From the NCBI RefSeq assembly GCF_038594945.1, contig NZ_JBCFYD010000002.1:868001-932000 (forward strand): a stretch of 64,000 nucleotides of DNA, given 5' to 3'. The stretch's first letter is position 1. Every line of letters begins with the position of its first letter. The DNA comes from Fodinibius sp. Rm-B-1B1-1. Its GTDB lineage: Bacteria > Bacteroidota > Rhodothermia > Balneolales > Balneolaceae. The translations under genes and the position numbers were made by a program. The notes below the pieces were generated by a model that saw nothing but the letters and a program-made list of their open reading frames with translations, did no database searches and had not been told where the DNA came from. Positions 12,708 through 33,295 of this stretch are shown piece after piece.

Positions 12708-12745
12708 AAAGGGATATGGTTCAAACCCCATATCCCTTTTATTGT
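12708..12745 (+). terminator. Rho-independent terminator after the metallopeptidase-like gene
   Basis: Perfect 12-bp stem AAAGGGATATGG (12708-12719) with CCATATCCCTTT (12728-12739), an 8-nt loop and a trailing T-rich run. Confidence 0.85.
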
Positions 12746-12854
12746 TTTTAATAGATCCAATTAATTTGCATTGAACGTTTTATTGTTAAATAAAATTACA
12801 TTGGGTAAAAGTAGGGATAATTAATTTCAAAAAGCTTACTTAACGTCTGTTTTA

Positions 12855-14468
12855 ATGAGCTTACGAAATCAAGATTCTAAAGAGTCATCACAAAGAGAAG
12901 GCATTAAAAAGTATTTCGACGTTCATAATCCCGTCTTTTGGCCGTCGGTTGTGCTTATTTTCTCCATGATTGTTACAACCTTAGTCATGGGGGAGCAAGC
13001 AGAAACGATGTTCAGTGCCGCCCAAAGTTATATTTCTAATAATTTTGGATGGTTGTTTATCCTGTCGGTAAATACGTTCCTCATTTTTTCCCTGGTTATC
13101 GCCTTTAGTCGATTTGGTAATATTCGCTTGGGTGGAGCCGATGCTAAGCCTGAGTTCAGTACCATGGCTTGGTTCGCCATGCTCTTTAGCGCGGGAATGG
13201 GTATTGGGATCATGTTTTGGAGCGTTGCTGAGCCGATTTATCATTATTTGAGTCCCCCGATGGCCCCGGAAGAAAGTGTTGAGGCTGCCCGACAGGCTAT
13301 GAGTTTAACCTACTTGCATTGGGGATTTCACGCTTGGGGTATTTATGCTATTGTTGCCCTCTCGTTAGCTTTTTTTGCCTTTAACAAAGGGTTACCGCTC
13401 TCGTTTCGATCTGTATTTCATCCAGTATTGGGTGATCGTATTGAAGGCTGGATAGGAGATGTCATCGATATTCTTGCTGTTTTAGCCACCTTATTTGGAC
13501 TTGCCACTTCGCTGGGACTGGGGGTAAAACAAGTAAGCGCTGGACTTAATCATTTATTTGCTACACCCGATACGGTGTGGTTGCAAGTAGGGCTTATTGT
13601 AGGCATAACCATGGTTGCAACCTTATCGGTGATACTTGGAATTGATAAAGGAGTGCGTGTGCTTAGTGAAGCAAACATTCGCATTGCCGTGCTATTTTTG
13701 GTGTTTATGCTGATTGTAGGTCCCACTATTTACATCATGGATTCCTTTGTCCAAAACCTTGGACATTACGCCAATAATATTCTCTCGTATAGTTTCTGGA
13801 CAGAATCTTACGAAGGTTCAACTTGGCAAAATAGCTGGACCGTCTTTTATTGGGCCTGGTGGGTGTCATGGTCGCCTTATGTAGGGATGTTTATCGCTCG
13901 TATATCCAAAGGCCGAACCGTAAAAGAGTTTATTTTAGGGGTGTTAATTGCGCCCAGTATGGTCACCTTTTTATGGTTGGCCGCATTTGGAGGAACTGCC
14001 ATAAACCTTGAGATGGAGGGAATTGGAAATATTGGGGTTGCTGTGCAAGATAATGTCGCAACAGCATTGTTTGTTTTCTTAGAACAATTTCCGCTTGGCT
14101 TTTTTACATCTATTATTGCTATCATTTTGGTAATGAGCTTCTTTGTAACATCATCCGATTCTGGGTCACTCGTTATTGATAGCTTGACCAGCGGGGGCAA
14201 ATTAGATGCTCCCGTGGGGCAGCGCATATTCTGGGCGCAAACCGAGGGGGCCGTAGCAGCTGTGCTGTTACTTGGAGGAGGATTGAATGCCTTACAAACG
14301 GCTTCTATCATCACAGGATTACCATTTTTGTTTATCCTGTTATTGATGTGCTACAGCTTGTATAAAGGACTGAGTGAGGCGCATCAGAAGAAAATACAGC
14401 GCAACAAAAAGAAAGAACGCGAATCGTACCGCACATTGATCACTAAGCTTGTTGAAAGAGACAGTTAA
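12855..14468 (+). CDS. BCCT-family osmolyte transporter (betaine/choline/carnitine type)
   Basis: Secondary transporter for glycine betaine or related trimethylammonium compounds, 537 residues with about 12 transmembrane helices. Diagnostic segments are GMGIGIMFWSVAEPIYHY (glycine-rich TM3) and the tryptophan box WAWWVSWSPYVGMFIARISK in TM8, followed by the family helix with SKGRTVKEF. The C-terminus is a short basic/charged tail (EAHQKKIQRNKKKERES), which in BetP-like carriers senses osmotic state. The substrate cannot be fixed from sequence. A universal stress protein follows after 33 bp and is probably co-transcribed. Confidence 0.92.
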   Translation: MSLRNQDSKESSQREGIKKYFDVHNPVFWPSVVLIFSMIVTTLVMGEQAETMFSAAQSYISNNFGWLFILSVNTFLIFSLVIAFSRFGNIRLGGADAKPEFSTMAWFAMLFSAGMGIGIMFWSVAEPIYHYLSPPMAPEESVEAARQAMSLTYLHWGFHAWGIYAIVALSLAFFAFNKGLPLSFRSVFHPVLGDRIEGWIGDVIDILAVLATLFGLATSLGLGVKQVSAGLNHLFATPDTVWLQVGLIVGITMVATLSVILGIDKGVRVLSEANIRIAVLFLVFMLIVGPTIYIMDSFVQNLGHYANNILSYSFWTESYEGSTWQNSWTVFYWAWWVSWSPYVGMFIARISKGRTVKEFILGVLIAPSMVTFLWLAAFGGTAINLEMEGIGNIGVAVQDNVATALFVFLEQFPLGFFTSIIAIILVMSFFVTSSDSGSLVIDSLTSGGKLDAPVGQRIFWAQTEGAVAAVLLLGGGLNALQTASIITGLPFLFILLLMCYSLYKGLSEAHQKKIQRNKKKERESYRTLITKLVERDS

Positions 14469-14501
14469 ATAAGCAACAGAATAAATTATACTTATTCTAT
14501 T

Positions 14502-15419
14502 ATGACATCATTTAAGCACTGGATGGTTGGTCTCGACTTAACGAATATGGATGAGCTTGTCCTGGGGTATTTGGATTTCTTTTCGGAAATAAAGCAACCG
14601 GAGCAAATTACGTTTATCCACGTTGTGGAAGACAGTGGTATTTCTGATGAACTTGCAGAACTATTTCCAGAGGTTGAGACTACGAAATCATTAGAAAGCA
14701 TAATTCGAGAAGAGTTAAAGAAGAAGGTTCATCAATATTTTGATGCTGACAGTCCACATATAAATATTATTGTCCGCGAAGGGGATACCACAGAGTTACT
14801 ATTATCTTCTCTTGGAGAATTTGATCCCGATTTGTTGGTTGTCGGAAAGAAAACAGGGTATGAAGGAGAGGGCATTTTAGCGCGAAAGATCACGAAATAT
14901 GCCCATTGTTCTCTCTTGTTTGTTGCAGAAAATTCACAGTATCAGCTTCAAAATGTGCATGTGCCTATAAAGTTTTCAAAAGCTTCGGCTCGGGCGGTTC
15001 GTTTTGCCCAATCATTAGCGCAAAAGGTTGAGGCTAACTTACATATTCAGTATGTGTACCGGTATCCCAAGCAGTTTTTTCCCTATATCCCTTCTGATAA
15101 ATATTCCGAGCGGATGGACAAGCACCTCCGAGAAAAGTATACCGATTTCAAAGAAAGTTTTAAGTTGCAAGAATTACCTAACTGCACCTTTACAGTTAAT
15201 GAGGATGGGAAACCTGCAGACAAAATATATAATTTAACGCTACATACCCGGGCCGATATGCTGGTGGTTGGAGCAAAGAGCAAATCCTCTGCCGCTGCAC
15301 TCATAACCAATGAAATGGCTGATAGTCTGGCCAATTATCATTTTGGAATTCCAGTACTCATTTATAAAGAAAAGGAAGAACACATCGGGCTGCTACGAAG
15401 TCTCTTGGAGGGGGATTAA
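14502..15419 (+). CDS. Tandem universal stress protein (UspA family)
   Basis: 305 residues containing two Usp folds (about 5-145 and 150-295). Each ends with a conserved buried strand: DLLVVGKKTG then LARKITKYAHCSLLFVAE in the first, and ADMLVVGAKSKS then IPVLIYKE in the second. The classic G-x2-G-x9-G(S/T) ATP-binding motif is not well preserved in either, so nucleotide binding is doubtful. Placement 33 bp behind the BCCT carrier suggests a regulatory or stress-linked role for transport; Usp-transporter pairs occur in halophiles. Confidence 0.8.
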   Translation: MTSFKHWMVGLDLTNMDELVLGYLDFFSEIKQPEQITFIHVVEDSGISDELAELFPEVETTKSLESIIREELKKKVHQYFDADSPHINIIVREGDTTELLLSSLGEFDPDLLVVGKKTGYEGEGILARKITKYAHCSLLFVAENSQYQLQNVHVPIKFSKASARAVRFAQSLAQKVEANLHIQYVYRYPKQFFPYIPSDKYSERMDKHLREKYTDFKESFKLQELPNCTFTVNEDGKPADKIYNLTLHTRADMLVVGAKSKSSAAALITNEMADSLANYHFGIPVLIYKEKEEHIGLLRSLLEGD

Positions 15420-15524
15420 CATCCCACACCGTACCAAGAACCTTGTATCTCCATAGCGCTTTGGGTAAATGGATTATGCAGCGTTAGAAGTAGGATTTCA
15501 TGTTGGATACATAGCCTATTTAAA

Positions 15525-15645
15525 ATATCCCTATAGGGTTAGTCGGATTATTACTTAAGGGATAATTCAATTATTACTATAGGGTTAGTCCAATTATCCC
15601 TATAGGGGTAATACAAATATCCCCTAAGGATATTTGTATTAAGGG
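15525..15645. repeat. Palindromic repeat patch behind the Usp gene
   Basis: This 120-bp stretch has three copies of a CCCTATAGGG-like palindrome. Two sit in a longer direct repeat CTATAGGGTTAGTC (15531 and 15577) and a third, CCCTATAGGGG, is at about 15598. It ends with a 13-14-bp perfect inverted repeat (15609-15622 with 15628-15641, core ACAAATATCC) around a 5-nt loop. The last hairpin could terminate the Usp transcript, but no long T-run follows. The rest of 15420-15902 shows no gene on the plus strand. Confidence 0.7.
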
Positions 15646-15902
15646 GTGGGGGTAGGCCTAATTTCTTGTTATAGAGCTCATCTGCCTAAGGTGCAAGGAA
15701 AGGAATGTTGCTGGTTGTATCTTGTACCAAAACAGAGATATGATACGACAGATATTTAATAAATTGCTTTATCTGATCGCAAGATAACCTTGGCATGTTT
15801 ATACGATTCCCATCTCAACGCTAAGCTTGTGATCGGATGGGTTCTGTATAAAATTACAGATTCTGATCTAACAACCGGTAGAAAGGATAAAATGAATAGC
15901 TA

Positions 15903-16082
15903 TTACTCTTCCTCTTCTTCAAAGAAACGCATTTCAAGAGCTTCCAGTCGTCGTTCCAACCGCATTAACTTTTGCAGGATAAGTACATGTGTTTTTCCCG
16001 CATCAATACCTACCGGACTATCTTCATCCTTAATTTGCTCTAAAATTTCTTCATACTCTTCTTTAGAAATATCCAGACTCAT
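15903..16082 (-). CDS. Small conserved-looking acidic helical protein, unknown
   Basis: 59 residues, translated from the ATG at 16082 (starts MSLDISKEEYEEILEQI) to a stop at 15903. It reads as two amphipathic helices ending in an acidic tail (FFEEEEE), with GIDAGKTHVLILQKL between them. It lies 32 bp downstream of the SUI1-like gene on the same strand, at the end of a compact row of small genes. A longer frame on the opposite strand across this region is judged a shadow. Function unknown. Confidence 0.6.
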   Translation of the reverse strand: MSLDISKEEYEEILEQIKDEDSPVGIDAGKTHVLILQKLMRLERRLEALEMRFFEEEEE

Positions 16083-19033: not shown

Positions 19034-20476
19034 TTAAAAACTTTTTCGACGAGTCCCTGATATCTCAGTATAGGTAGTAGTATTACCAGAGGGAGTTGTT
19101 ACTGAAATATTTATTGTTAAATCAGCAGGATCATTTGATTCTTCATCGGTATCTCGAATTGAAAAGTTGAATTCTGTAGCGCCTGGTCCCGGGAATAGGT
19201 GATTACCAAGTGTGAAATCAGCATCTCCTGTAACTTCCATACCTTCACCAGCCTCAACGGAAATCTGAGTACCCGCTGCCATTGGATTTCCATTCATATC
19301 AGTAACGGTATACGAAAACTTTTCTCCGCCGTTGGGATCCAGATCAAATGTAGTAGGAGTAGCACTTATTTGTGCCGCTCTTGTGGAGAAAACGACATTT
19401 ATTTCTTTAGAAATAGGGTTGTCATTTTCATCAACCGTAGTTGCCGTAACAGTTGAATAGCCGGGACGTCCGCCACTACCAGATATACCGTCATCGGGAC
19501 GAGGATCTCCGGAAATCATGTCAACGGTGACGATACCGTCCTCATTTGTTTCTCCCGAGCCCTGGATAACTCCACCGGTAGAGTTAAAGTAAACAACCGT
19601 GCCTGGTTTTACAGGATTTGAAAATTTATCTCCAACAATAACAGTAACAGGATTCCTTACCCCATTAATATCATAAGCTTCGAAATTGAACTTATCAGGA
19701 GAAATACTGAAGTGATCTGGATCTGGAAACCCCCCGTGAATAGCTACAAGAACAGGAGTAGATTTTATTGTTATGCCCAAGTCTTCTCGATCTACACTTG
19801 CTTGGACCTTAACAGGTCCGGCTACATTACCACTAAATAGGGAAGTTGTTGCTTCACCATTAGAATTTGTTGTAGCTGTTTTAGGAATAATTTCTTCTTC
19901 GCCCCCAGGTCCGGATAAAATTTCAAAATCAACATCTACCGCTCCATTTGCATTTAATGCCCGGCCTGCTGAGTCAACAACTTGGAAAGTGAATGCAGTA
20001 CTAATATTATCACCAGTTTCTTCTATAAAAATTGCTTGCTCTGATATACTTTCAAGGATAATAGCTGCCGGTCCTTCCGGTTCTCCGCCAACCTCATCGC
20101 CTCCACCATCACCACTACCATCTCCAGAACTATCTGTTGATTGTAATTCAATGACTAAATCATCAACATCAGTGTCTGGAGCAAGCTTAAAGTTTGTCGT
20201 TTGTGACTGATATCCCTGTTTGTCAATTTCCAACGTTACACTTACAGTTTCACTTCCGGGATCCACATCAAAAGAGAAATTTCCTGCAGAGTCGGTTGTA
20301 GCTGTTTGTTGAAGATTTTCGGGTTGGGTTAGTTCGACAATGGCCTTACTAATGGGGTTGCCAGAACTTTCTTCAATAACCTGTCCGGCAATAATAACTG
20401 TGTCACTGCCAGCGGTACAGGCCTGTAACATAAATACAATAATGATGGAGAAGAGGAGGTATAGGCGGTTCTGCAT
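19034..20476 (-). CDS. Surface lipoprotein with carboxypeptidase-regulatory and Ig-like domains
   Basis: 480 residues with lipobox MLQAC (Cys20). Residues about 30-112 form a carboxypeptidase regulatory-like beta-sandwich (IAGQVIEESSGNPISKAIVE). A Gly/Ser/Asp linker (about 115-130) follows, then several Big_1-like Ig domains with the alternating pattern of TNSNGEATTSLFSG and NEDGIVTVDMISGDP. This layout suits an exposed adhesive or structural protein. It has its own terminator and is divergent from the pilus locus, from which it is separated by 820 bp; a link is inference. Confidence 0.8.
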   Translation of the reverse strand: MQNRLYLLFSIIIVFMLQACTAGSDTVIIAGQVIEESSGNPISKAIVELTQPENLQQTATTDSAGNFSFDVDPGSETVSVTLEIDKQGYQSQTTNFKLAPDTDVDDLVIELQSTDSSGDGSGDGGGDEVGGEPEGPAAIILESISEQAIFIEETGDNISTAFTFQVVDSAGRALNANGAVDVDFEILSGPGGEEEIIPKTATTNSNGEATTSLFSGNVAGPVKVQASVDREDLGITIKSTPVLVAIHGGFPDPDHFSISPDKFNFEAYDINGVRNPVTVIVGDKFSNPVKPGTVVYFNSTGGVIQGSGETNEDGIVTVDMISGDPRPDDGISGSGGRPGYSTVTATTVDENDNPISKEINVVFSTRAAQISATPTTFDLDPNGGEKFSYTVTDMNGNPMAAGTQISVEAGEGMEVTGDADFTLGNHLFPGPGATEFNFSIRDTDEESNDPADLTINISVTTPSGNTTTYTEISGTRRKSF

Positions 20477-21299: not shown

Positions 21300-21737
21300 A
21301 TGGGACAACAACAACTTTTACTCGTAATACTCGTGACGATTATCGTAGGTATCGCTACGGTAGTGGCTATTAACACTTTCTCAAGTGCCAGCGACAGCGC
21401 TAATGTAGATGCTGCTCGTCAGGATATACTATCAATGGCATCAACTGCTCAAGGATGGTATATGAAACCAGCCATGATGGGTGGTGGAGGACAGGACTTT
21501 ACTAATACTAATGGAGATCAAATTGAAATTGACGATATTTGTCAAGGAACTGTTGATGGTACTGATTGTGTAACTGAAAATGGAACCTATTCGATACAAT
21601 CAAGAAGTACAGATGAATTTGAAATTCAAGGCACCCCATCAACAGCTGGAGGAACTTTAACTGCGTTTATAGTTCCAGATAATATTCTCCAAACCAGTGG
21701 CGGGTCTGAAGGTATAGCATATACGGCTGGTTCCTAA
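21300..21737 (+). CDS. Type IV pilin-like major subunit with minimal leader
   Basis: 145 residues. The N-terminus is MG, then QQQ, then an unbroken hydrophobic helix (LLLVILVTIIVGIATVVAINTF), like a class III signal peptide cut after Gly2. The Phe+1 and Glu+5 of canonical pilins are absent. After the helix comes a polar globular part of about 115 residues with two Cys (DICQG, TDCVTE) that could form a disulfide loop, and Gly/Ser/Thr-rich segments. It is the first gene of the pilus cluster, followed at once by a strong terminator, as expected for an abundant subunit. Assignment rests on helix form and context. Confidence 0.75.
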   Translation: MGQQQLLLVILVTIIVGIATVVAINTFSSASDSANVDAARQDILSMASTAQGWYMKPAMMGGGGQDFTNTNGDQIEIDDICQGTVDGTDCVTENGTYSIQSRSTDEFEIQGTPSTAGGTLTAFIVPDNILQTSGGSEGIAYTAGS

Positions 21738-21757
21738 TAGATCCATATATTTTATAT

Positions 21758-21790
21758 AAAAAGGCTCCAATTTATTTGGAGCCTTTTTTA
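21758..21790 (+). terminator. Terminator directly after the pilin gene
   Basis: 13-bp stem AAAAAGGCTCCAA (21758-21770) with TTGGAGCCTTTTT (21776-21788), 5-nt loop, and a T-run built into the 3' arm. It separates the pilin transcript from the machinery genes or lowers their read-through. Confidence 0.9.
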
Positions 21791-21825
21791 TTTAATATTA
21801 TCCCTAAGCTTTATTAAATGTATTG

Positions 21826-23313
21826 ATGGTATTTCGCATCGCTTTATTTGCGGTTCTTCTCGTACCTATACTGACGCCGGTCATTTACTTTTCTGACTTA
21901 ATGTTTCTCTATAATGAGAAACGAATACTACAGTTGACTATACTTATATTTATTGGAGTATTGACAGCTTTTGTATCCAAGGAACAATTGAAGAAAACAC
22001 TTCGCCAATTACCTAATTACTTTTGGATAATCTTTTTATGCATATTGTTATTGGCGTTTATTTCAACACTATTTTCGTCTTCCCCTTTTTATGGTGCTGT
22101 TGAAATAAGTTTATTGTTAATGGTAATTTGGGTTGCTCTAATAACTGCTCATGTAACCCAAAACTACTATTATGGGAAGTATATGGTAGTCTCAGCAGCT
22201 TGTATTGTTGTTTTTCTCTATGTGCTTAAATTTAGTATTGGGTATACATTTTTTATGTCTGGCTACGAAAGTTTTCCCCTTTGGCCTGCATCAGGTATTA
22301 AAGGAGGTATTACAGGATTTGTAAACATCCGTTTTTTTAACCAAGTGCAAGCCTTCACGCTTCCTTTATTAATTGGAGGAGGTCTGGTAATGATGCCCAA
22401 AAAAAGAACTGCTGGAATTTTCTGTTTTTTGCTTACTGTAATTTGGTGGATGCTATTGATACAGTCGGCTGGTCGTGGCATTATGTTAAGCTCTTTATCA
22501 GCAGCTTTGGTTTCATTGTTTTTTTTAAAAAAACATATACACCGTTGGATATGGTACTTCTTAGGAACACTTTTGCTAGGATACCTTTTGAAGGTCATCC
22601 TATTTGACATTATTCCTATTGATACCAGTTCAGCCAAATCTATGGTCAGAGGGGGCAGTCCCAGATTGACATTATGGCCCCAAACTTTTTTTTCGTCCTT
22701 AGAACAGCCAATTTTTGGCCATGGGCCCATGTCATTCGCACAAATACATACCGGCTTTACACCAAGTCATCCCCATAACTCTATACTACAACTATTGTAT
22801 GAATTGGGATATCCAGCTACAATAGGCGTATTAATAGTAGCCGGTATGGGATTTAAAACGTGGATATTACAAACTAAAAAGAACTTAAAAGTAAAATCAG
22901 ATATTTTAGATGATACTGCAATTATCAAAGTTTCCTTAACAACATCAGTTTTAGCAGGTTTATGTTATAGCTTAGTTAGTGGGGTAATAGTAATGCCTTT
23001 GAGCCAATTATGGCTGGCTTTGGTTTTTGGTACAGTCTTGGGTTTATACAACAAAGGAAAGTCTGAACAAGATATATATATATCTATTAATACCTTTTAT
23101 GTATATGCTTCAAAGTTATTTATAATTATTGCCGCGATTGTATTAGCATCTGTTTTAATTCGAGATATACCAACTTTGCGAGAAAATGAAAAAAGATTTG
23201 TAAAAGAAACGGACAGACACGTTTTTAGGCCTCGCTTTTGGCAACAGGGGAAAATAGGTTTCGAAAAACTTGATACAATAGAACTCAAGCAAACCGAAAA
23301 ATCCAATTTGTAA
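21826..23313 (+). CDS. O-antigen ligase/Wzy-C family membrane protein, candidate pilin glycosyltransferase
   Basis: 495 residues with about 11 to 12 hydrophobic segments. A large loop carries SHPHNSILQLLYELGYPA (about residues 311-328), the signature His loop of the Wzy_C superfamily, which includes WaaL ligase, Wzy polymerase and PglL/PilO oligosaccharyltransferases. Its position between pilin and PilC favours a pilin-modifying role; that is inference, as no glycan-synthesis genes adjoin. ATG at 21826 preferred over a TTG one codon earlier. The C-terminal 40 residues are basic and soluble. Confidence 0.75.
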   Translation: MVFRIALFAVLLVPILTPVIYFSDLMFLYNEKRILQLTILIFIGVLTAFVSKEQLKKTLRQLPNYFWIIFLCILLLAFISTLFSSSPFYGAVEISLLLMVIWVALITAHVTQNYYYGKYMVVSAACIVVFLYVLKFSIGYTFFMSGYESFPLWPASGIKGGITGFVNIRFFNQVQAFTLPLLIGGGLVMMPKKRTAGIFCFLLTVIWWMLLIQSAGRGIMLSSLSAALVSLFFLKKHIHRWIWYFLGTLLLGYLLKVILFDIIPIDTSSAKSMVRGGSPRLTLWPQTFFSSLEQPIFGHGPMSFAQIHTGFTPSHPHNSILQLLYELGYPATIGVLIVAGMGFKTWILQTKKNLKVKSDILDDTAIIKVSLTTSVLAGLCYSLVSGVIVMPLSQLWLALVFGTVLGLYNKGKSEQDIYISINTFYVYASKLFIIIAAIVLASVLIRDIPTLRENEKRFVKETDRHVFRPRFWQQGKIGFEKLDTIELKQTEKSNL

Positions 23314-23382
23314 CAAACCCAAGTTTTACTGATCATTGTTAGAGTAACATCATCTACTATCAAATTATAAGTAACAGGGATT

Positions 23383-24726
23383 ATGCCGGAGTTTAGATTA
23401 CGAGCTATTTCGCCACAGGGCAAGATGATCAAATCGGAGTTTGAGGCGGGGAGTAAAAAAGAAGCTGAGCAGCGGGTAGAAAAACTGGCTCGAAAAAACG
23501 GTTTCAAGGTTAAAGGGATTGACAAAAAAGAAACCTACCAGTACAAAGTACAGAAAGGAACCAAAGATCCGGTTACGGGAGAACAGGAGGCTTATTCTAA
23601 AGAGGAGGTTGAAAAAGCATTAGTCAAGTTGGGCTATAAGGTCATCCGCATCAACAAAAAGTGGTTTGACTTTAAGGGAGGAGTCCCCCAAAAAGAAGTA
23701 GTGACTTTTATTAGTCTAAGTGCCGATCTCTTAGAGCAGCAGCTGAGCTTTGATGAGATTTTGGAACTACTTCATGAGGATACGACCAACGCGCGTATGA
23801 AAGAGACCATAGCTACCATTCAGAAAGATCTAAAAGATGGCAAGGAAGGGGATGAGGTGTATAGCAAGCATGAAGATGTGTTTGGGGAATTTGCTTCCTA
23901 TATGTTAAGTGTAGCCTCAACCAGTGGTAATATGGCCCAGGTATTTCGAAGCACTGCTAAATTTTTGGAACGCGACGCAGAATTTAAAAGTAATCTGCGT
24001 CGATCACTACTTATGCCGGCCATAACCGTTGTAGCCACAATTGGTGTAATCCTTTTTTATGTGGGTTACATCTTTCCCGCTACTGCTGAAGCGTTTGTAG
24101 AGATGGATATCCAGCTTCCGCCTATGACAGCTGCAACACTGGAGATGAGTTATTGGTTGCAAGACAACTGGCTTATCTTAACTTTGGCCCATATAATTCC
24201 CATTGCAGGGGCGTGGTATTGGCTGACTCAAACCAGGAAGGGACAGCTTTGGAAGGATAAAAACATTATTAAACTTCCAGTTATTGGTGATCTAATACAC
24301 AAAACCAGTATCGAAATTTTTGCCCGTGTTTTTTATACCCTATATAGTGGATCGGGACAAAATATTGAGGTCATCAAAGTGGCTGCCGAAGCCTGTCGTA
24401 ATAAGTACATGGAGAAACAGATTAAAGAGGTGGCTATTAAGATGATGTTAAGCGAGGGGGCAGGCCTTATTGAATCGCTGAAAGCTACTGGCGTGTTTAC
24501 CGATACAGCTATCAGCCGTTTTAAGCTTGGGGCTGAGTCGGGAGCATTAAAACAAAATGCCAAGCAACTTGCTCAATACTACGAAACCCAAACAACCTAT
24601 AAAATGGATACCATTGTGGATATGATTAGTCTGGGCGTAAATATCTTTATTATGATCGCGTTGATTGCTATTACCATTGTATCCGCTGAGTCTGCATTAA
24701 TACAACCCAACTCGGGTGGTATGTAG
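23383..24726 (+). CDS. pilC: Type IV pilus inner-membrane platform protein (PilC/GspF)
   Basis: 447 residues. Two T2SSF helical repeats, one at about 110-225 and one at about 310-420, frame the usual hydrophobic segments at about 210-230, 260-280 and 420-440. In front lies an unusual N-terminus with two successive copies of the small strand-helix domain (about 3-46 and 51-96): FRLRAISPQGK and KKEAEQRVEKLARKNGFKVKGI, then YQYKVQKGTKD and KEEVEKALVKLGYKVIRI. Only one copy is normal. PilC couples the ATPases to the pilus base in the inner membrane. Its partner PilB follows after 170 bp. Confidence 0.9.
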   Translation: MPEFRLRAISPQGKMIKSEFEAGSKKEAEQRVEKLARKNGFKVKGIDKKETYQYKVQKGTKDPVTGEQEAYSKEEVEKALVKLGYKVIRINKKWFDFKGGVPQKEVVTFISLSADLLEQQLSFDEILELLHEDTTNARMKETIATIQKDLKDGKEGDEVYSKHEDVFGEFASYMLSVASTSGNMAQVFRSTAKFLERDAEFKSNLRRSLLMPAITVVATIGVILFYVGYIFPATAEAFVEMDIQLPPMTAATLEMSYWLQDNWLILTLAHIIPIAGAWYWLTQTRKGQLWKDKNIIKLPVIGDLIHKTSIEIFARVFYTLYSGSGQNIEVIKVAAEACRNKYMEKQIKEVAIKMMLSEGAGLIESLKATGVFTDTAISRFKLGAESGALKQNAKQLAQYYETQTTYKMDTIVDMISLGVNIFIMIALIAITIVSAESALIQPNSGGM

Positions 24727-24846
24727 GTGAATAGTAATAGTATATTTACTTGGTGACCGTATAATAGTTTGGTAATGAGGCCTGAAAACTAATAATGAAT
24801 GCCACAATATTTTACTTACATTTCTTATACGAAAATGTATATTGTG

Positions 24847-24863
24847 GAACATTCACAATGTTC
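24847..24863. promoter_or_regulatory. 17-bp palindrome upstream of pilB (operator candidate)
   Basis: GAACATT-CAC-AATGTTC is a perfect 7-bp inverted repeat with a 3-nt spacer, 33 bp before the pilB ATG. Its size and position are typical for a dimeric transcription factor site. No regulator gene is seen next to it. Confidence 0.4.
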
Positions 24864-24896
24864 ATAACTGATTTCTGAGTTAACTGTTGGCTTTTA

Positions 24897-26669
24897 ATGG
24901 GAAAAGTGAATACACGTAGACATATTGGTAATATTCTGGTGAACCGGGATATTATTACTGAGGATCAGCTTCACGAGGCCATGGCGATATTACGTGAAGA
25001 ACCTGATTCTTCGAACCGGCGATTAGGACAAATTTTGTATCAGGATTTAGGCATCGATCGCCATCAGGTGATGAGTGAGATTGCCTCAATCTACGCTTTT
25101 GAAGAAGTCTTCACAGATCAGGATTCGGTAGATGATGAGGCTATTGAAGAAATTAAGTCTCACATTGATGAACTACCTACCGAGGTTATCGATGAGCTGG
25201 TTCATCAAAAGGCAGTGCCACTGCGGCAAAATCAAAATACGTTGACTATCGCAGCTGCGGACCCCTCCGACCCAACGCTTTCCAATATTGTCTCTAAGCT
25301 TAATTTCAAACAACATCACATTGTATACTGCCGTTATGAGCTTGTAGAACAAATTTTGACGCAAGTTTATGAGCAGAAAAATGAGTTTTTGGATCTCCTT
25401 GAAGAGATTGAATATGAAGAACCAGATCTTCAGGAAGAAGCCGAAGAAATTAACGAAGAAGAAATTGATGCTGAAATTAACCAGAGCATGCTTAACTCTC
25501 TGGTTGAAGGGTTTTTGGTTGAGGGGGTTCGGAAAGGGGTCAGTGATATCCACATTGTACCATGCGGACCAACTTCTACCGATATCCGATTTCGGATTGA
25601 TGGTAAATTACAGCTCTGGCATCAACAGAATAATGTGAAGCCGGAAGCGATATCGGCAGTTGTGAAAGATAAAACCAGGAACGTAGACCGTTTTGAGCGA
25701 GATGCTTCGCAAGATGGTTTTATCCAGCGGCAAGTGGATGGTCATAACATTCGGTATCGTGTTTCTATTATGCCAATGGTAGGGGCGCAGTTCGATCGCA
25801 AGTTTGAGTCCATCGTTATACGTATTCTTGATGATCGCGAAGTAATTACCGACCTGAATGTGTTGGGCCTCCAGAAAAAGGCAAAAGAAGATTTTGTTAA
25901 AGCTATTGAAAAGCCATCAGGTATCGTTATTGTAACAGGACCTACCGGGAGTGGTAAGTCGACGACATTGGTTGCAGCGCTTTACTATGTAATTACGCCT
26001 GAAGTAAACGTACTTACGGTAGAGGAACCTGTAGAATATCTTATTGAAGGAGCGAGACAGCTTAAAATAAGCAACCATATGACTTTCGATTTGGCCATGC
26101 GGGGAATTTTGCGTCACGATCCGGATATTGTGTTGGTAGGAGAGATTCGAGACCTTAAAACTGCTGAAATTGCTATTAAGCTGGCTAATACCGGTCACTT
26201 AACATTTTCAACCCTACACACTAATGATGCACCCAGTGCCATCTCTCGACTCTATAAGATGGGGGTCGAAACATTTTTGATTGCCAATGCGGTTAACTTA
26301 ATTATGGCGCAGCGTCTTATTCGAACATTGTGTAAGAATTGTAAAGAAGAATATCGTCCACATATTGAAACTGCCAAGGGCATTGGTTTTACCGAAGAAG
26401 AGTATGAAGAGACAACTTTTTATAAGGCCGTTGGGTGTGATGAGTGCACAAATGGTTATAAAGGACGAACGGCTATTATGGAAGCGCTCTATTTTGATAA
26501 AGAAATAAGAAAAATGATTTTGGAATCTGGTGATGAAATTGATGAAGTAGCTATTAAAGAATATGCCATGAGTCAGGGGATGTTGAGTTTACGAGGTTCT
26601 GGCAGGGAGCGTATTAAAAATGGATTAACAACCATTGAAGAAATTGCAGCAATTACAATCGAAGATTAA
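24897..26669 (+). CDS. pilB: Pilus assembly ATPase (PilB/GspE)
   Basis: 590 residues. An N-terminal MshEN/GspE_N domain (RRHIGNILVNRDIITEDQL onward, about 1-150) can bind c-di-GMP in some relatives. The ATPase core has Walker A GPTGSGKST (348-356), an Asp-box with EEPVEY, Walker B DIVLVGEIRD (about 409-418) and His box TGHLTFSTLHTND. The tetracysteine zinc motif is Cys479, Cys482, Cys514 and Cys517. It powers pilus extension. A His/Asp/Glu-rich acidic linker (about 155-190) lies between the domains. Confidence 0.94.
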   Translation: MGKVNTRRHIGNILVNRDIITEDQLHEAMAILREEPDSSNRRLGQILYQDLGIDRHQVMSEIASIYAFEEVFTDQDSVDDEAIEEIKSHIDELPTEVIDELVHQKAVPLRQNQNTLTIAAADPSDPTLSNIVSKLNFKQHHIVYCRYELVEQILTQVYEQKNEFLDLLEEIEYEEPDLQEEAEEINEEEIDAEINQSMLNSLVEGFLVEGVRKGVSDIHIVPCGPTSTDIRFRIDGKLQLWHQQNNVKPEAISAVVKDKTRNVDRFERDASQDGFIQRQVDGHNIRYRVSIMPMVGAQFDRKFESIVIRILDDREVITDLNVLGLQKKAKEDFVKAIEKPSGIVIVTGPTGSGKSTTLVAALYYVITPEVNVLTVEEPVEYLIEGARQLKISNHMTFDLAMRGILRHDPDIVLVGEIRDLKTAEIAIKLANTGHLTFSTLHTNDAPSAISRLYKMGVETFLIANAVNLIMAQRLIRTLCKNCKEEYRPHIETAKGIGFTEEEYEETTFYKAVGCDECTNGYKGRTAIMEALYFDKEIRKMILESGDEIDEVAIKEYAMSQGMLSLRGSGRERIKNGLTTIEEIAAITIED

Positions 26670-26761
26670 AAAACTCTTAGACGTTTAGGGTAAAAACAAA
26701 TAATCCTTAATATTATTGATGTCCGAAAAGGGGTAGTATAAGTTAAATTTGGAGAAAAGTT

Positions 26762-27265
26762 ATGGCAACGGATAATCAGGCAGAAAAAGAAGCGACGCCC
26801 GAATACATTCGGCAATTTTTAAAAGAACCGCCTTTATTACTAAGGAACTTCCACTACGAAGATATAATGGAGTTCCTCAATCTTGGCACTGAAGAACGTT
26901 TTGTACAAGACGATGTAATAATTAATGAAGCGGAGTACGTGAATTCTGCTTATTTGATTTCACAGGGTAAAGTCTCTATCTGGAAAGACAATATTCAATT
27001 AGCAACATTATCGAAAGGTAGTTTTTTAGGAGAAACCTTTCTCTTTAGTAAAAATAACAGGATGGCAAAAGTGGTCTCGGAAGGGGATTCACAACTACTC
27101 AAATTTGAGCGATATGAAGCTTTAAACTTTTTCCGGAAGAAACCCGAGAAACTGTTCAATATATTTACCCGGAATATCATAGAGATTCAGCAGCAGAAAA
27201 TAAGTAACATGAATGTCCAGCTCTTACAACTTAAAAAACGCCTTTTAGACGATAACAGCTGGTAA
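26762..27265 (+). CDS. Cyclic nucleotide-binding domain protein, no DNA-binding domain
   Basis: 167 residues with a single cNMP-binding beta-roll (about 25-130: INEAEYVNSAYLISQGKVSIW, LATLSKGSFLGETFLF) and a C-terminal helix (IIEIQQQKISNMNVQLLQLKKRLL) that could be a coiled coil. The phosphate-binding cassette is modified (GSFLGETFLFSKNNRMAKV). No helix-turn-helix follows, so it is not a Crp-type regulator. It lies between the two pilus ATPases and may tune extension or retraction in response to a nucleotide; that is inference. Confidence 0.75.
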   Translation: MATDNQAEKEATPEYIRQFLKEPPLLLRNFHYEDIMEFLNLGTEERFVQDDVIINEAEYVNSAYLISQGKVSIWKDNIQLATLSKGSFLGETFLFSKNNRMAKVVSEGDSQLLKFERYEALNFFRKKPEKLFNIFTRNIIEIQQQKISNMNVQLLQLKKRLLDDNSW

Positions 27266-27409
27266 CTGTTTGCCCTGACTTTGTTTTAAACCTTCTTATA
27301 TATTGAAATCCGTCAATTTATATTTGGAAATATTAGAAAAATTTAATGTTTTGTGAGAGAACCTAATGAATTTCCGTTATTTATTTGGATTAATAAATAG
27401 ATGTGTGTT

Positions 27410-27423
27410 CTTTATCGATAAAG
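27410..27423. promoter_or_regulatory. Perfect 14-bp palindrome upstream of pilT
   Basis: CTTTATCGATAAAG is a perfect 14-bp palindrome about 85 bp before the PilT start, in the 243-bp gap that follows the cNMP-binding gene. It could be an operator or a short hairpin; nothing else decides between them. Confidence 0.3.
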
Positions 27424-27508
27424 TTCGTAACAAATTGTTCTTCAACTGTTCTTTATAACGAGCAGCAGGGTTATTAAACATTTGCAGCAAGTAAAAATTG
27501 GACTATAA

Positions 27509-28759
27509 ATGGAAGTAGGGGTACAAAAAAATAAGGTTAAGGAACTTATAGAACCGCTCGCAAATCAACTGCGGGACAGTTCTAAGGGGCTGGAACGGCA
27601 TAGAGAAATAGGAAAAATTGTGGACAGCCAACCTGAAGAAACACGCCATGAACTTCGGGATGTTATTGAAAAGCTCCTCCAAAAAATGTACAAAAATGAG
27701 GCTTCTGATATCGATCTGGGTGGTCCAGGGTGTGGTAATAAGGTGTGGTATCGCATCCATGGAGATAAGTCACCTGATGAAAGTGCTCCTGAGTTTACCC
27801 TGACTGAGACAGACTTTTTGTTGCATAACCTTATTATGCCCAGTCAAAGAGAGCACCTGTTGGAGAATCGAAACTTAGACTTCTCTTATTCACTTGCCGG
27901 AACAGATTCTATTGCTGGAGCTAAACGCTATCGTGCCGATATGTATTTTGATTTGGAGCATTTGGCCCTGAATATGCGTAAAATTGATAATGAAATACGT
28001 CCATTCAAAGGGCTTAACCTTCATCCTGAGGTAGCCAAGGCACTCAGCCTTAAATATTATAAATACGGGATGACCCTGGTAACCGGAATCACAGGTTCGG
28101 GTAAGTCGTCAACGCTTGATACCGTTATAGATGCCAATAATAGAACAGTAGATTCTCATATTGTAATTATTGCATCTCCGGTTGAATTGGTTCATGAGCC
28201 CAAAAAGTCTGTTGTTCGCCATCGTGAGGTTGGTCGCGATGTAGCTTCGTTTAAAGAAGGGGCTATTCAAGCGTTACGCCAAGACCCTGATATCATCGTT
28301 ATAGGTGAGCTTCGCGATCCTGAAACGATTATGACTTCTCTTGAGATCACCGACTCTGGCCACAAAACGTTTGGGACTCTTCACACCAGTTCAGCAATGG
28401 AAAGTATTGAACGTATTCTGGGAGAGGTGCCCGTAAATGAGCAAAATCGAGTTCGTACCCGTTTAGCGGATGTTTTGACCTGTGTTATTAGTCAAAAGTT
28501 AATCCCAAGTCTCGATGGTAAGCGAGTTCTTGCGAAAGAAGTACTGATGGTTACGAGTTCGGTAAAAGCTGCTATCCGAAATAACAACATCAACGAGATC
28601 TATCAAATGTTGATGGAGGGTAGTGATCAAGGAATGATGACGATGGAACAAGATCTTAAGCGCCTGTATGATGAAGGCAAGATTTCAAAGGAAGAAGCTA
28701 TCAATAACGCCAATAATAAGAAAAGGCTTAAGCAGCTAATTTCAGAAACGCAATATTAA
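27509..28759 (+). CDS. pilT: Pilus retraction ATPase (PilT-like) with altered Asp box
   Basis: 416 residues. Walker A is GITGSGKSS (193-201), Walker B is VIGELRDPET (about 264-273) and the His box is GHKTFGTLHTSSAME. The PilT-type C-terminus AIRNNNINEIYQML and MMTMEQDLKRLYDEGKIS is clear. At the Asp-box, where PilT proteins carry EDPIEF, this one reads ASPVEL (222-227), and the conserved Gln-Arg before Glu becomes HRE. Whether it still hydrolyses ATP is open. N-terminal segment (about 1-60) is an extra helical region. It precedes the PilM-N fusion by 23 bp. Confidence 0.9.
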   Translation: MEVGVQKNKVKELIEPLANQLRDSSKGLERHREIGKIVDSQPEETRHELRDVIEKLLQKMYKNEASDIDLGGPGCGNKVWYRIHGDKSPDESAPEFTLTETDFLLHNLIMPSQREHLLENRNLDFSYSLAGTDSIAGAKRYRADMYFDLEHLALNMRKIDNEIRPFKGLNLHPEVAKALSLKYYKYGMTLVTGITGSGKSSTLDTVIDANNRTVDSHIVIIASPVELVHEPKKSVVRHREVGRDVASFKEGAIQALRQDPDIIVIGELRDPETIMTSLEITDSGHKTFGTLHTSSAMESIERILGEVPVNEQNRVRTRLADVLTCVISQKLIPSLDGKRVLAKEVLMVTSSVKAAIRNNNINEIYQMLMEGSDQGMMTMEQDLKRLYDEGKISKEEAINNANNKKRLKQLISETQY

Positions 28760-28782
28760 TCTACGACGGATAAACGTACCGG

Positions 28783-30486
28783 ATGTTTGGAAAAAATGAA
28801 TATGTGGGTATAGCGGTACAGGATGACCTCATCCGAGTAGCACAACTACGTGTGGAAGGGAACTCGGTTAGAATTGTTAAACTGGACCGATTTTCTCTCG
28901 TTGAAAGAATAAAGTCTCAATCACAGTCTCAGAATCGGAATGCTCATGCTGAAGAAGATTCCGTATTTGAAGAAGATGCTGATGCAGATTCTATTTTTGG
29001 ATTAGAAGAAGATGAAGAAAGCGAAGAAGAAAGCATTGAGGATGAGCTGGATTTATCTGAATTAGAAGAAGATACCAGTAATGAGGAAGTGGGACTTGAT
29101 ATGGTTGAGGAGTCTGAGGCCCCACAATCGAATGAACTTCTTCTGTATAATATTCTTGCTGACATTGATAGCGATAAAGTTAATTTAGGGCTAAATATCC
29201 CGGCTGGAGATACTATTTTCCAGGTTATTCGTGATACTGACTTTTCAGAAGTCAAAAAGAAAGATCTTATTGAAGATCTGGAAGCCAAACTGGAGTCGAT
29301 TTACGGCACTCCAAAATCACCGGATAATTATTCATATGAAATCAGGGAAGATGGATCTTTGTTATTGGGATCTGTCGAAGATGAATCGGTTACTCTTCAG
29401 GCAATAAATAGGACCCGTGAGCTTTATACTGGAAAGTTAATAATACAAGATATTATTCCGGATGAAGTTGGGCTTGTGGGTATGGTCCGGGCTAATTATG
29501 AGCTGGATCCCGATGAAATGACGGGAATCATTCAGTTCGGTAAAGAATCGTGCCGGGTTGTGTTTATGAAGGGAGAAGAAGTTTGGTTGGTTTCTCCCAT
29601 CATTAATGAGGGAACGGAGAAAAAATCCTTCATGAACACAGTCTTTAGTAAAATTCTTTTTCAGCTTGATACTGGAGAAGTACCAAGCTTAGATCGTATT
29701 ATTCTTGCCAACAATACAAAAGGGGCTGAGGCTGTAGATTTCTTTAAACAAAACTTCCCTGATATCCATGTCGAAGATCTACAGGTAAAAGAGGAATATA
29801 TTGAAAGTGAAAGTGTCGAATCTTCTGCTATTCCGGCATTTACTACAGCAATAGCCACAGCTTTGGCGGCTTCAGGAGCTAAGGCTGACGTTTTTCCTGA
29901 TATTTCTTTTGTTCCAAAATATGTAGAAGACCGGCAAAAGATATTTAAGCTGCAATGGCATGGGTTGCTCATTCTATTCCTGATATTTCTGACACCTATC
30001 ACCTTTAATTATTTCTATACTCAAAATGCGCAACAAATTGATTCTTATTCCAGTGAGTTAAATCAGATGAATTCGCAGCTGGAACGCTTAGATCCTATCG
30101 TAGAAGAAGTTGGTCAGTTGGAGCAAGATTTATCGGTGCTCAAAGAAAAGCTGACGATGCTCGATACACTTACGCAAGGTAGTAAAGAGTGGTCGGAAAA
30201 ACTTGATATGCTTAACAAGGGTGTTGATGGAGTAAATAACACGTGGATAACTTCTTTTTCACAGTCGGGTGATGGCACATTTATACAGGGTTATACTCTT
30301 TACCGTAACAGAATACCGGAGATTGTAAATATTTTTGATGAAGCAACTTTATTGAGTGTAAATAACGAAACGATCCGCGAAAAACAGGTATATACATTTT
30401 CAATTTTGATACAATCATTTGCAGCGTCCGATTCAATTTATTCACCTTCGTCACCTGAAGAGGTAAAAAACTTGATTGGCAAATAA
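28783..30486 (+). CDS. PilM-PilN fusion protein of the pilus alignment complex
   Basis: 567 residues. Residues about 1-380 read as an actin-like PilM domain (YVGIAVQDDLIRVAQLRVEG, later MTGIIQFGKESCRVVFMKG). It is interrupted at about 50-115 by a strongly acidic, low-complexity insert. Residues about 390-412 are a transmembrane segment (GLLILFLIFLTPITFNYFY). The remainder, a coiled coil (DSYSSELNQMNSQLERL) plus a ferredoxin-like domain, matches PilN. In most bacteria PilM and PilN are separate and bind each other; here they are one chain. The next gene, PilO-like, follows after 18 bp. Confidence 0.8.
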   Translation: MFGKNEYVGIAVQDDLIRVAQLRVEGNSVRIVKLDRFSLVERIKSQSQSQNRNAHAEEDSVFEEDADADSIFGLEEDEESEEESIEDELDLSELEEDTSNEEVGLDMVEESEAPQSNELLLYNILADIDSDKVNLGLNIPAGDTIFQVIRDTDFSEVKKKDLIEDLEAKLESIYGTPKSPDNYSYEIREDGSLLLGSVEDESVTLQAINRTRELYTGKLIIQDIIPDEVGLVGMVRANYELDPDEMTGIIQFGKESCRVVFMKGEEVWLVSPIINEGTEKKSFMNTVFSKILFQLDTGEVPSLDRIILANNTKGAEAVDFFKQNFPDIHVEDLQVKEEYIESESVESSAIPAFTTAIATALAASGAKADVFPDISFVPKYVEDRQKIFKLQWHGLLILFLIFLTPITFNYFYTQNAQQIDSYSSELNQMNSQLERLDPIVEEVGQLEQDLSVLKEKLTMLDTLTQGSKEWSEKLDMLNKGVDGVNNTWITSFSQSGDGTFIQGYTLYRNRIPEIVNIFDEATLLSVNNETIREKQVYTFSILIQSFAASDSIYSPSSPEEVKNLIGK

Positions 30487-30504
30487 TTTAGCAAGCTTAG
30501 CAAT

Positions 30505-31377
30505 ATGTCCTACGGTGTACGAAATACTCTTATTCTTCTCATTGTCTTAACCATCTTTATTGGTGGCGGATGGAGCTATATCTATTTTTATCAGCAACCA
30601 AAATTAGATGAGCTTGAGCAAAATGTAGAGCAGACAAGACAAGAGCTAAATCAACAACAACAACGAGCTGATCAGCTACCAGCACTTCAAAATCAGTTTA
30701 AAGAAGCTACTAAGTTTTTTGATAACTATTACAAAGTCCTTTATCCCAATAGCAATGAAGATAATGTCTACGATTTTCTTAACCGGGTAAGTACGGGGTC
30801 GGCTTATACCGAATTTACATTCAATTTTTCTGATTCAACCACTTATAACCAGCACGGTGTCATTAACATGCAGGTTACCGGTCAGGGATACTATAGAAAT
30901 TTCATCAATTTTATTCGCCAGATTGAATTAAGCAGACCGTTAAATAAGGTGAGTCAAGTATCCATTAATCCCATTAATGAGCTCGATTCATATGGCAAGG
31001 TCAATTTTCGTTTTTCTCTAAAAAGCTTTTATGATCGCGTAAGATTATTAGATGAATCAGAGCTTGCCATAACTAATAATTTACGAGGATCGGTTTATAA
31101 TCCATTTTATCCACTTATTAGAGCTGTAAAGGATAATGAGAATAATTTAATTGATGTAGAAAATAGTACCCTTTTGGCGGTAAGCTCAAACAAAGTTTTT
31201 CTTTTAGATCAACAAGGAATTATGCAGCGACTCTCTGAGGGAGATGACGTTTATCTCGGACAATTGACATCGATTGATATTGATGAGGGATCTGCTTCTT
31301 TTAGACTCAATAAAGGTGGAATTGTTGAACGCGTAACCTTGCAGGTCAATAACGATGAAAATGAAAGTAGTGATTGA
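30505..31377 (+). CDS. PilO-like protein with C-terminal PilP-like domain
   Basis: 290 residues. Short cytoplasmic start, one transmembrane segment (about 8-28), coiled coil (about 34-75), then a PilO-type ferredoxin-like domain (about 85-185). Residues about 195-285 end with LSEGDDVYLGQLTSIDIDEG and FRLNKGGIVERVTL, the pattern of the small beta domain of PilP/GspC that contacts the secretin. No separate pilP gene is present, so fusion is the simplest reading. It joins the inner-membrane complex to the secretin, whose gene begins 1 bp after this stop. Confidence 0.7.
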   Translation: MSYGVRNTLILLIVLTIFIGGGWSYIYFYQQPKLDELEQNVEQTRQELNQQQQRADQLPALQNQFKEATKFFDNYYKVLYPNSNEDNVYDFLNRVSTGSAYTEFTFNFSDSTTYNQHGVINMQVTGQGYYRNFINFIRQIELSRPLNKVSQVSINPINELDSYGKVNFRFSLKSFYDRVRLLDESELAITNNLRGSVYNPFYPLIRAVKDNENNLIDVENSTLLAVSSNKVFLLDQQGIMQRLSEGDDVYLGQLTSIDIDEGSASFRLNKGGIVERVTLQVNNDENESSD

Positions 31378-31378
31378 T

Positions 31379-33295
31379 ATGAATTCTTTTAGATACCATA
31401 AGTTTATTCTTTTTGTTGCGGCATTTTTATTTCTGGCTACAAGTAGTGTATTTAGTCAGAATAGAGATAATCTACCTGCAGAGTTCAGAGAATATACCAA
31501 CCCCGAAGAATTAGTTCGGTTTGACCGAAGCACTTCGTTTACACGGGCTGTGGATGTTATCAATGAGTTTTCTCAACAATTTCGTGGTAAAGCTATTGTG
31601 AATCGTGCAGAGGTGGATGGAAATATTGGTATTTCGGTTCCTCCCATGCATTGGATGGATGCTCTCAAGCTGATTTTACGCGTTAATGAACTGCATTTAG
31701 TTGACAAACAGGACTTTTTTGAAATTGTTACACGAAAATCGTTAGAAGCTGAAACAGAAGGCCAAACTGCTCCCCAAACAGCGAGAACAGCAGATGGAGA
31801 AGGACCGGTGGCTACAACGCAAACCCACGAGGTCCGAATAAATGCGATATTTTTTGAAGGGAATCGCAGAGCCTTGCAAGAAATTGGAGTAGATTGGTCT
31901 ACAATTTCTGAAAATGTTCCAGAGTCGGCCCTTGGTGGAGGTCAAGGTGGGGGTGGACAACAAGGGGGCGGTCAGGGTCAGCAAGGCTCACAAGTACCAA
32001 GCGCAGATTTTGACGGACCTTTTGTACAAGTAAATTCGAAAGGTGCTCAGAGTGTCTCACAAGATGTGTTTAATGCCTTAATTAACGTCGGGGAAATTGG
32101 CAACACTGGCATTGATGTCCAAGCTTTATTTAGTGCATTTGAAGCCGATAACCTGGGAGAAATTTTAGCTTCTCCCACGGTAAAAGTTATGGATGGCCAG
32201 GAGGGTAAAATACAGGTTGGTCAAGACTTTTCTATTAAACAACGTGATATTGCAGGGAATGTCGTTGAAAACTTCTTCCAGGTAGGTACCATTCTTACGG
32301 TAACCCCCCAAGTGATAACCCAGCAAGATACTACTTTTATCCATCTGGATATTGATGCTGAACGTTCATCTGCACAACCTGATCCTGTTAGTACCATTAT
32401 CAATAAGCAGGAAGCAACGACACAATCATTGTTACTCGATGGAGAAGCAACAGTTATTGCAGGGTTGTACCGAACAGAAAAGGCTGATGTAAGGAGAGGG
32501 GTACCCATTTTGAAGGATCTGCCGGCTTGGTTTTTTGGATTACGATATCTCTTTGGCTACGAGTCGCATGACTTCCAGATGAGAGAACTCGTGATTTTGA
32601 TTCAAGCTTCGTTAGAGCCTACGATCCCCGAACGATATGGTAAAGAGTCTTATGATTCAAAATATGAGATTCTACAGGATGAACGGGATCGCATGCAGCA
32701 AGAAATTCGGGACGGAGAAGAGATCATGAATCGAGATCCTATTGAGCAAGATGAGATGGATAATTTTGAGGATTCGGATACGGAGCAGGAACCTCAGGAA
32801 GAAGATCAAAGACAACAAGATACTGCTGACTCTGAAGATCTTAAGCAACAAGGTCAGGAAGAAAATACACCTTCCGAAACAGTGGAAAATAATGACGGGG
32901 AAGAAGCCTCTGAAACTCTCCAGGATCCTGAGGTTAAAACAGAAAAGGTTGAGCTCAACTTAGGAGGGGGATACGAAGAAGATTCTGTCTCAACAAATGG
33001 GGAAGAATCAGCACGAGATTCTGATACCCAAGATTCTGCCAATAATGCTGGGCCTACTAATAACATTTCCACTTACTATGTTGTTGGCGGATCATTTTCA
33101 GTGATGGAAAATGCTAATAACTTACAATCGGAATTAGAGGCCAATGGCTATAACTCATCAATTATCAAAATGCAGGGATCTGATATAAACCTTGTCTCAT
33201 ATCAAGGTTTTGATAACTTGGAAAGTGCCCAAAAAGCCCTTAGAGATATCAAGCAGAATCAAAACCCTGATGCCTGGTTGTATAAGGCTCAGTAA
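31379..33295 (+). CDS. pilQ: Secretin (PilQ/GspD family) with C-terminal SPOR domain
   Basis: Outer-membrane pore of the pilus machine, 638 residues. A signal peptide ends near SSVFSQ. An N0/STN-like domain (about 40-120; VNRAEVDGNIGISVPP) is followed by a Gly/Gln-rich loop (about 186-206), then the secretin core with TVKVMDGQEGKIQVGQ, ITQQDTTFIHLDIDAERS, GLYRTEKADVRRGVPILKDLP and a REL-containing final strand. After an acidic disordered segment (about 440-560) comes a SPOR-type domain (about 564-638; YYVVGGSFSVMENANNL). ATG at 31379 is preferred because the signal peptide starts there; an upstream ATG at 31355 lies inside the previous gene. Confidence 0.9.
   Translation: MNSFRYHKFILFVAAFLFLATSSVFSQNRDNLPAEFREYTNPEELVRFDRSTSFTRAVDVINEFSQQFRGKAIVNRAEVDGNIGISVPPMHWMDALKLILRVNELHLVDKQDFFEIVTRKSLEAETEGQTAPQTARTADGEGPVATTQTHEVRINAIFFEGNRRALQEIGVDWSTISENVPESALGGGQGGGGQQGGGQGQQGSQVPSADFDGPFVQVNSKGAQSVSQDVFNALINVGEIGNTGIDVQALFSAFEADNLGEILASPTVKVMDGQEGKIQVGQDFSIKQRDIAGNVVENFFQVGTILTVTPQVITQQDTTFIHLDIDAERSSAQPDPVSTIINKQEATTQSLLLDGEATVIAGLYRTEKADVRRGVPILKDLPAWFFGLRYLFGYESHDFQMRELVILIQASLEPTIPERYGKESYDSKYEILQDERDRMQQEIRDGEEIMNRDPIEQDEMDNFEDSDTEQEPQEEDQRQQDTADSEDLKQQGQEENTPSETVENNDGEEASETLQDPEVKTEKVELNLGGGYEEDSVSTNGEESARDSDTQDSANNAGPTNNISTYYVVGGSFSVMENANNLQSELEANGYNSSIIKMQGSDINLVSYQGFDNLESAQKALRDIKQNQNPDAWLYKAQ

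Follow-up and report, generated by a model that had tools for sequence, protein, structure and literature searches.

Is a leader peptide, together with the dedicated peptidase that cleaves it, indispensable to a type IV pilus? Leader cleavage is treated as defining for type IV pili, the type II secretion system (T2SS), tight-adherence (Tad) systems and archaeal filaments, and the available tools identify pilins by their leader. The question is raised by a locus of Fodinibius sp. Rm-B-1B1-1 (Bacteroidota; Balneolaceae), located at positions 21300-33295 of a 64,000 nt stretch of contig NZ_JBCFYD010000002.1, hereafter the window, in a genome of 3.41 Mb that is 97.7% complete. An earlier note on this DNA, made from its letters and open reading frames (ORFs), described nine neighbouring genes encoding a type IV pilus-like machine. 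All nine ORFs, co-directional on the + strand, were confirmed, and their domain assignments were largely backed by Pfam and NCBIfam models run on the window ORFs and by AlphaFold2 (AF2) models of the pilin and of the PilM half of a PilM–PilN fusion.

Our answer is that the locus very probably encodes a retractable type IVa-like pilus, the subunits of which lack a leader and are assembled with no prepilin peptidase involved. The sequence shows that the pilin reading frame starts at position -3 with respect to mature type IV pilins, and neither a leader-bearing pilin nor the peptidase PilD is detectable in the genome.

The pilin start site and the missing leader

The first gene of the locus (21300..21737, +) encodes a protein of 145 aa with the N-terminus MGQQQLLLVILVTIIVGIATVVAIN, which was identified as a leaderless type IV pilin, probably the major one, from this N-terminus, its AF2 fold and profile matches. 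It opens with MGQQQLLLVILVTIIVG directly from its own start codon, and an in-frame stop lies three codons before the ATG. The canonical class III leader consists of 6-26 hydrophilic residues ending in Gly, and is followed by an almost invariant Glu5 (PMC4471445). These pilins carry no such class III signal peptide, and mature position 5 corresponds to Leu8; the earlier note had correctly pointed out the lack of Glu5, but had missed the absence of the whole leader. No Pfam or NCBIfam family model covers the leaderless pilins.

The same type of start is shared by the pilins of about 30 related loci, one of which has MAQQQ, and among 143 distinct homologous pilins the N-terminus is nearly invariant, all of them beginning at an MGQQQ-type start. 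The MGQQQ motif was one of two seeds in the scan of loci from named taxa, and the uniformity of that scan is therefore partly a product of selection; the profile searches of Balneolales and Bacteroidota did not use this seed, and among the matches listed for them nearly all start at model position 1.

An ordinary type IV pilus would lie behind this pattern if the start codon had been misassigned, so that the leader was missed, and if a diverged PilD had escaped detection. Some archaeal and bacterial leaders are indeed short, PilD sequences are variable, and an upstream in-frame start codon of some kind is present in 6/143 pilins. In the remaining 137, however, there is no such codon, the distance from the ATG to the upstream in-frame stop has a median of four codons across the 143, and a Shine–Dalgarno-like motif is in place for 92/143 starts, compared to 7 and 10 in control windows, an enrichment that fits initiation at the MG start. 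On these start-codon, stop-distance and Shine–Dalgarno data, a misassigned pilin start is rejected; the second half of this explanation, the diverged PilD, is taken up below.

Pilin fold and alignment register

The product of 21300..21737 is NEVERTHELESS a type IV pilin, as judged from its AF2 model (pLDDT 88.4), in which a 54-residue N-terminal helix is followed by an antiparallel beta-sheet. A Foldseek search of this model against the PDB returned no significant match, while in a second-look comparison with VIA-align the six best structural matches were all type IV pilins, namely PilV (Z 9.3), PilE (7.4), PilX and FimA (both 6.9), plus two PilA proteins. Full-length FimA aligned from mature residue 1 to 142 with residues 4 to 145 of the model. 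A profile of 35 relatives matched pilins of the PDB (Geobacter, Thermus and PilE1) at E 0.002-0.2 and gave an agreeing register, with pilin position 9 at mature residue 6 and Gly17 at the conserved Gly14. In this shared register residue 4 corresponds to mature residue 1, M-G-Q alone precedes it, Leu8 falls at Glu5 and Asn25 at Pro22.

Prepilin peptidase and leader-bearing pilins

A search of the window's genome with PF01478, the prepilin peptidase model, gave no match, while the same model was positive in 12/14 control genomes and also picks up T2SS-linked PilDs in close relatives. The possibility that PilD had merely been overlooked by Pfam was rejected by means of a second model, a profile of nine Bacteroidota PilDs, which recovers eight known positives at E ~1e-30 or lower and gives chance scores elsewhere; in the window's genome its scores were at chance level (E ~0.01). 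The earlier note had seen no prepilin peptidase in the window and advised looking for PilD in the rest of the genome, where none was found by either model. PF07963 (N_methyl) likewise detected no canonical N-methylation pilin in this genome. An ordinary type IV pilus with an overlooked leader and peptidase is, on the evidence of both halves, highly improbable.

The pattern extends well beyond this one genome. Among Balneolales genomes at least 90% complete the pilin is present in 64/85, and PF01478 is absent from 57 of those 64; it is also absent from 49/54 of the pilin-positive genomes tested in other Bacteroidota, and in Bacteroidota overall PilD is absent from 106/118 good pilin-positive genomes. 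Twelve of the PilD-negative genomes are single-contig, and N_methyl pilins are absent from all 12. In the PilD-positive genomes tested, PilD has leader-bearing company: in all eight, a pseudopilin with the canonical N_methyl motif is encoded less than 1 kb away, in contrast to an N_methyl match anywhere in only 4/72 PilD-negative genomes (Fisher p 1.7e-8). Three genomes (G192, G046 and G078) have N_methyl matches without a detectable prepilin peptidase, and these may be decaying T2SS remnants.

In the four Balneolaceae clusters inspected, PilD follows a leader-bearing pseudopilin, e.g. MKKQLKQIIKSEDGFSLTELLIVLAIIGI, within a cluster separate from the pilus locus, and three of the four show their own GspE- and GspD-like genes. 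Since PilD sits beside a leader-bearing pseudopilin in a T2SS-like cluster, these lineages retain the leader/peptidase pair for a T2SS-like system rather than for this pilus. The idea that the PilD of relatives serves the pilus locus was rejected on the same ground, the examined copies sitting with T2SS-like leader-bearing pseudopilins.

Minor pilins and other pilins in the genome

The earlier note had also remarked on a lack of minor pilins; none are in the window, yet nine occur elsewhere in the genome, as three sets of three at C2:301698-306878 and C1:958920-961265. By size and order and by weak profile matches these sets resemble PilV/PilW/PilX, and the minor pilins of relatives give weak matches to the PilV and PpdB models, their sets often lying between pilB and pilT. 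All of the minor pilins found start directly at the membrane helix and are leaderless (MNDYSDLIYLMGAMIVFS, MNLGITTSFIIGGLLLL, MGRGLLILVGGLVIIVG). A second MGQQQ pilin is encoded in the window's genome at G000:C1:45102, and genomes carry 1-9 copies of such pilins. A second ATGGG-CAR match, at G000:C1:379515, lies inside a transporter gene and was rejected as a chance match. As to the surroundings of the minor-pilin sets in the window's genome, those of L205 are flanked by genes for chaperone-like and small secreted proteins and for a 1617-aa protein (1986-3571, 11058-15911), and that of L206 by sigma-factor-like and anti-sigma-like genes (2289-3571).

These data bear on a second explanation, which casts the MGQQQ proteins as accessory membrane proteins, e.g. 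assembly factors, and has the filament made from other, leader-bearing pilins. The first residues of the MGQQQ proteins are unusually invariant, and both the filament and the function of the locus are read from genes alone, the latter point favouring not only this explanation but also the secretion device considered below. An N_methyl pilin from which such a filament could be built is, however, absent from the window's genome and from 68/72 PilD-negative genomes, and the MGQQQ proteins have the fold and size of a type IV pilin, stand first in the operon, occur in 1-9 copies per genome and are accompanied by minor pilins that are leaderless too. We regard an accessory role as quite improbable.

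Motors, platform, alignment proteins and secretin

The assembly ATPase PilB (24897..26669, +) has a T2SSE domain and an MshEN-type N-terminal region. Its best NCBIfam model is TIGR02538 (E 7.7e-132), at a score of 440.7 bits that lies under the equivalog cut-off of the model, and its closest solved structures are PilB proteins of type IVa pili; the assignment is also backed by the tree described below. The retraction ATPase PilT (27509..28759, +) matches TIGR01420 (E 4e-95) with a score of 318.9 against a cut-off of 319.1, and is kept across the Fibrobacteres–Chlorobi–Bacteroidetes (FCB) group. The platform protein PilC (23383..24726, +; T2SSF E 5.7e-29 in two stretches) is kept beside the pilin and pilB throughout the FCB loci compared. 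The earlier note had singled out a duplicated PilC domain; a pair of T2SSF domains is the rule in PilC proteins, whereas a doubling of the N-terminal module of about 45 residues, as read from the sequence, is unusual.

Of the two fusions proposed in the earlier note, PilM–PilN (28783..30486, +) is backed on both sides. The actin-like PilM half has no Pfam match, and its AF2 model matches the PilM structures 5eou (Z 25.1) and 2ych (Z 24.0), while the PilN half gives a weak Pfam PilN match and a match to Myxococcus PilN 3jc8 (E 9e-12). The next protein (30505..31377, +) is a PilO (Pfam E 6.4e-7) whose C-terminal part has no Pfam PilP match; in an alignment of relatives it shows a conserved NPF...L...G..V..G..L pattern, from which we infer a PilP-like part.

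The secretin PilQ (31355..33295, +; Pfam Secretin E 6e-30) has TIGR02515 PilQ as its best NCBIfam model and no Pfam AMIN match. Its C-terminal SPOR domain, noted previously, is real (E 3.7e-9), but it is limited to some family members and does not define the system: in a comparison that took in the window and the loci L044, L056, L063, L142 and L157, it was found on the secretins of the window and of one family relative, and not on those of the other lineages tested. The tail is perhaps a local substitute for other peptidoglycan anchors.

Two further genes of the operon encode no standard pilus component. A Wzy_C membrane protein (21823..23313, +; Pfam E 9e-11, no NCBIfam model matched) is encoded beside the pilin in part of the family and is missing from many relatives, and is thus optional; our guess is a pilin-specific O-oligosaccharyltransferase of the TfpO/PglL-like kind. 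A stand-alone cyclic-nucleotide-binding protein (26762..27265, +; Pfam cNMP_binding E 1.4e-11), which has no DNA-binding domain, is kept in the interval from pilB to pilT both in Balneolales and in Marinimicrobia (L158, L162), and one might guess at direct regulation of the pilus motors. Just upstream of the operon and divergent from it is a gene for a lipoprotein-like protein with CarboxypepD_reg and Big_1 domains (19034-20476, -), and in close relatives a neighbour of similar length occupies its position.

Distribution and phylogeny

The pilin is found in Balneolota, Rhodothermia, Ignavibacteria, Kryptonia, Chlorobi, KSB1, Calditrichota and Marinimicrobia, where it mostly heads the same operon. 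The earlier note had suggested checking the gene order across Balneolota and Rhodothermota; the order pilin-pilC-pilB-[minor pilins]-pilT-pilMN-pilOP-pilQ recurs across FCB phyla, its occurrences being in Balneolota, KSB1, Marinimicrobia, Ignavibacteria, Kryptonia, Calditrichota and Chlorobi. In Ignavibacteria, in Chlorobi and in one unclassified metagenome-assembled genome (MAG), the operon is interrupted or immediately followed by response-regulator-like genes (L159, L157, L175, L183, L186 and L194).

In an IQ-TREE phylogeny of PilB, with a small reference set and some long branches, the PilBs encoded at leaderless loci fall into one group with support of 62/63, which is compatible with a single origin, and they are split at 100/100 from the phylum's own T2SS-like ATPases. 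Two Ignavibacteriae MAGs (L168 and L189) carry a second, divergent PilB besides the leaderless pilin. The suggestion of a distinct machine lineage in this phylum thus held as far as the recurring order and fusions and the PilB grouping are concerned, although the lineage reaches beyond Balneolota and Rhodothermota. Its proposed hallmarks did not hold: the fusions and the SPOR tail, the latter local to part of the family, were rejected as the essence of the system, and what sets the machine apart is instead that its pilins, major and minor alike, have lost the leader, with the loss of PilD in most of these genomes.

The tree also bears on what the machine does. Denise et al. (PMC6668835) noted a branching of the so-called Bacteroidetes T2SS with type IVa pili, and the locus might accordingly be a T2SS-like or other secretion or envelope device without a surface pilus. 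Against this stand the PilT retraction ATPase conserved throughout the compared loci, the 100/100 separation between these PilBs and the phylum's T2SS-like GspEs, and the coexistence of a separate T2SS-like cluster in several relatives. Such a device seems unlikely, and it would concern the output of the machine, leaving the finding of leaderless subunits unchanged.

Proposed assembly and its implications

Taken across the group, we think it likely that there is an FCB-wide lineage of type IV pili in which all subunits lack a leader and no peptidase is needed, in which processing and N-methylation, although regarded as universal in type IV filaments, are dispensable, and in which an MGQQQ helix cap stands in for Glu5 and for the processed N-terminus. 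The pilin would be inserted into the inner membrane by the signal recognition particle (SRP)/Sec route with a few N-terminal residues inside, and methionine aminopeptidase would probably remove Met1, because Gly follows it, leaving G-Q-Q.... The subunit would then be ready for assembly driven by PilB and PilC without cleavage or N-methylation, and the invariant QQQ would cap the helix in the filament core, in the role of Glu5 and the methylated N-terminus. PilT would retract the fibre, PilM–N and PilO–P would connect the motors to the secretin, and SPOR would anchor the secretin to peptidoglycan.

Several points weigh against this reading. Glu5 mutants of ordinary pili fail to self-assemble (PMC4471445), and compensation by QQQ is therefore put forward as a hypothesis. 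The pilin fold is drawn from AF2, from VIA-align scores (Z up to 9.3) and from weak profile matches, beside the null result of Foldseek, and the filaments and the pilin N-terminus are known here through their genes only. PilD is often present in MAGs of KSB1, Marinimicrobia and Calditrichota (12/26 genomes reached via pilin loci), and the window's genome, at 97.7% complete, is not closed. A peptidase of an unrelated family could lie beyond the reach of homology searches, although nothing leader-like remains for it to cut.

If the reading is correct, the leader step is dispensable, and the roles of leader, Glu5 and N-methylation become testable against a natural exception. It would also explain a genome paper of 2013 in which pilA and pilD of an FCB organism were reported as 'not found' though pilT, Q, B and C were present (PMC3534657). 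Leaderless pilins are missed by pilin-finding profiles of the PF07963 type, and across much of the FCB group pili would consequently have been overlooked. No description of leaderless pilins or of FCB pili of this sort was found in the open-access literature, the scope of which excluded preprints, so that an earlier description is possible.

Comparison with known systems

Loci of the MSH pilus also lack a prepilin peptidase gene, but can borrow one, and the peptidase is treated as ancestral and core (Denise et al., PMC6668835). MSH genomes thus have a PilD to borrow, whereas here most genomes have none, that of the window included, and nothing is left to cleave. The T2SS-like cluster of Balneolaceae and other Bacteroidota (L050, L069-L071) shares GspE/GspD-type parts with the locus and coexists with it in some genomes, but it has leader-bearing GFSLTELLIV pseudopilins and its own adjoining PilD; and where type II secretion would lack PilT and have a GspE-type ATPase that groups with T2SS, the locus has PilT and a PilB set apart at 100/100. 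The Amuc_1098-1102 cluster of Akkermansia has a PilM-like model that aligns weakly to the PilM–N fusion (NF045709, E 7.9e-5).

The closest likeness is to the type IVa pilus of Myxococcus, Geobacter and Pseudomonas, with which the locus shares PilB, PilT, PilC, PilM, PilN, PilO, a secretin, V/W/X-like minor pilins and the pilin fold. It differs in its PilM–N fusion and probable PilO–P fusion, in a secretin without an AMIN match, in the lack of leader, Glu5 and prepilin peptidase, and presumably of N-methylation. Since the three defining features examined, viz. leader, Glu5 and peptidase, are all lacking, the system should not be filed as an ordinary type IVa pilus, however much of the machinery the two have in common.

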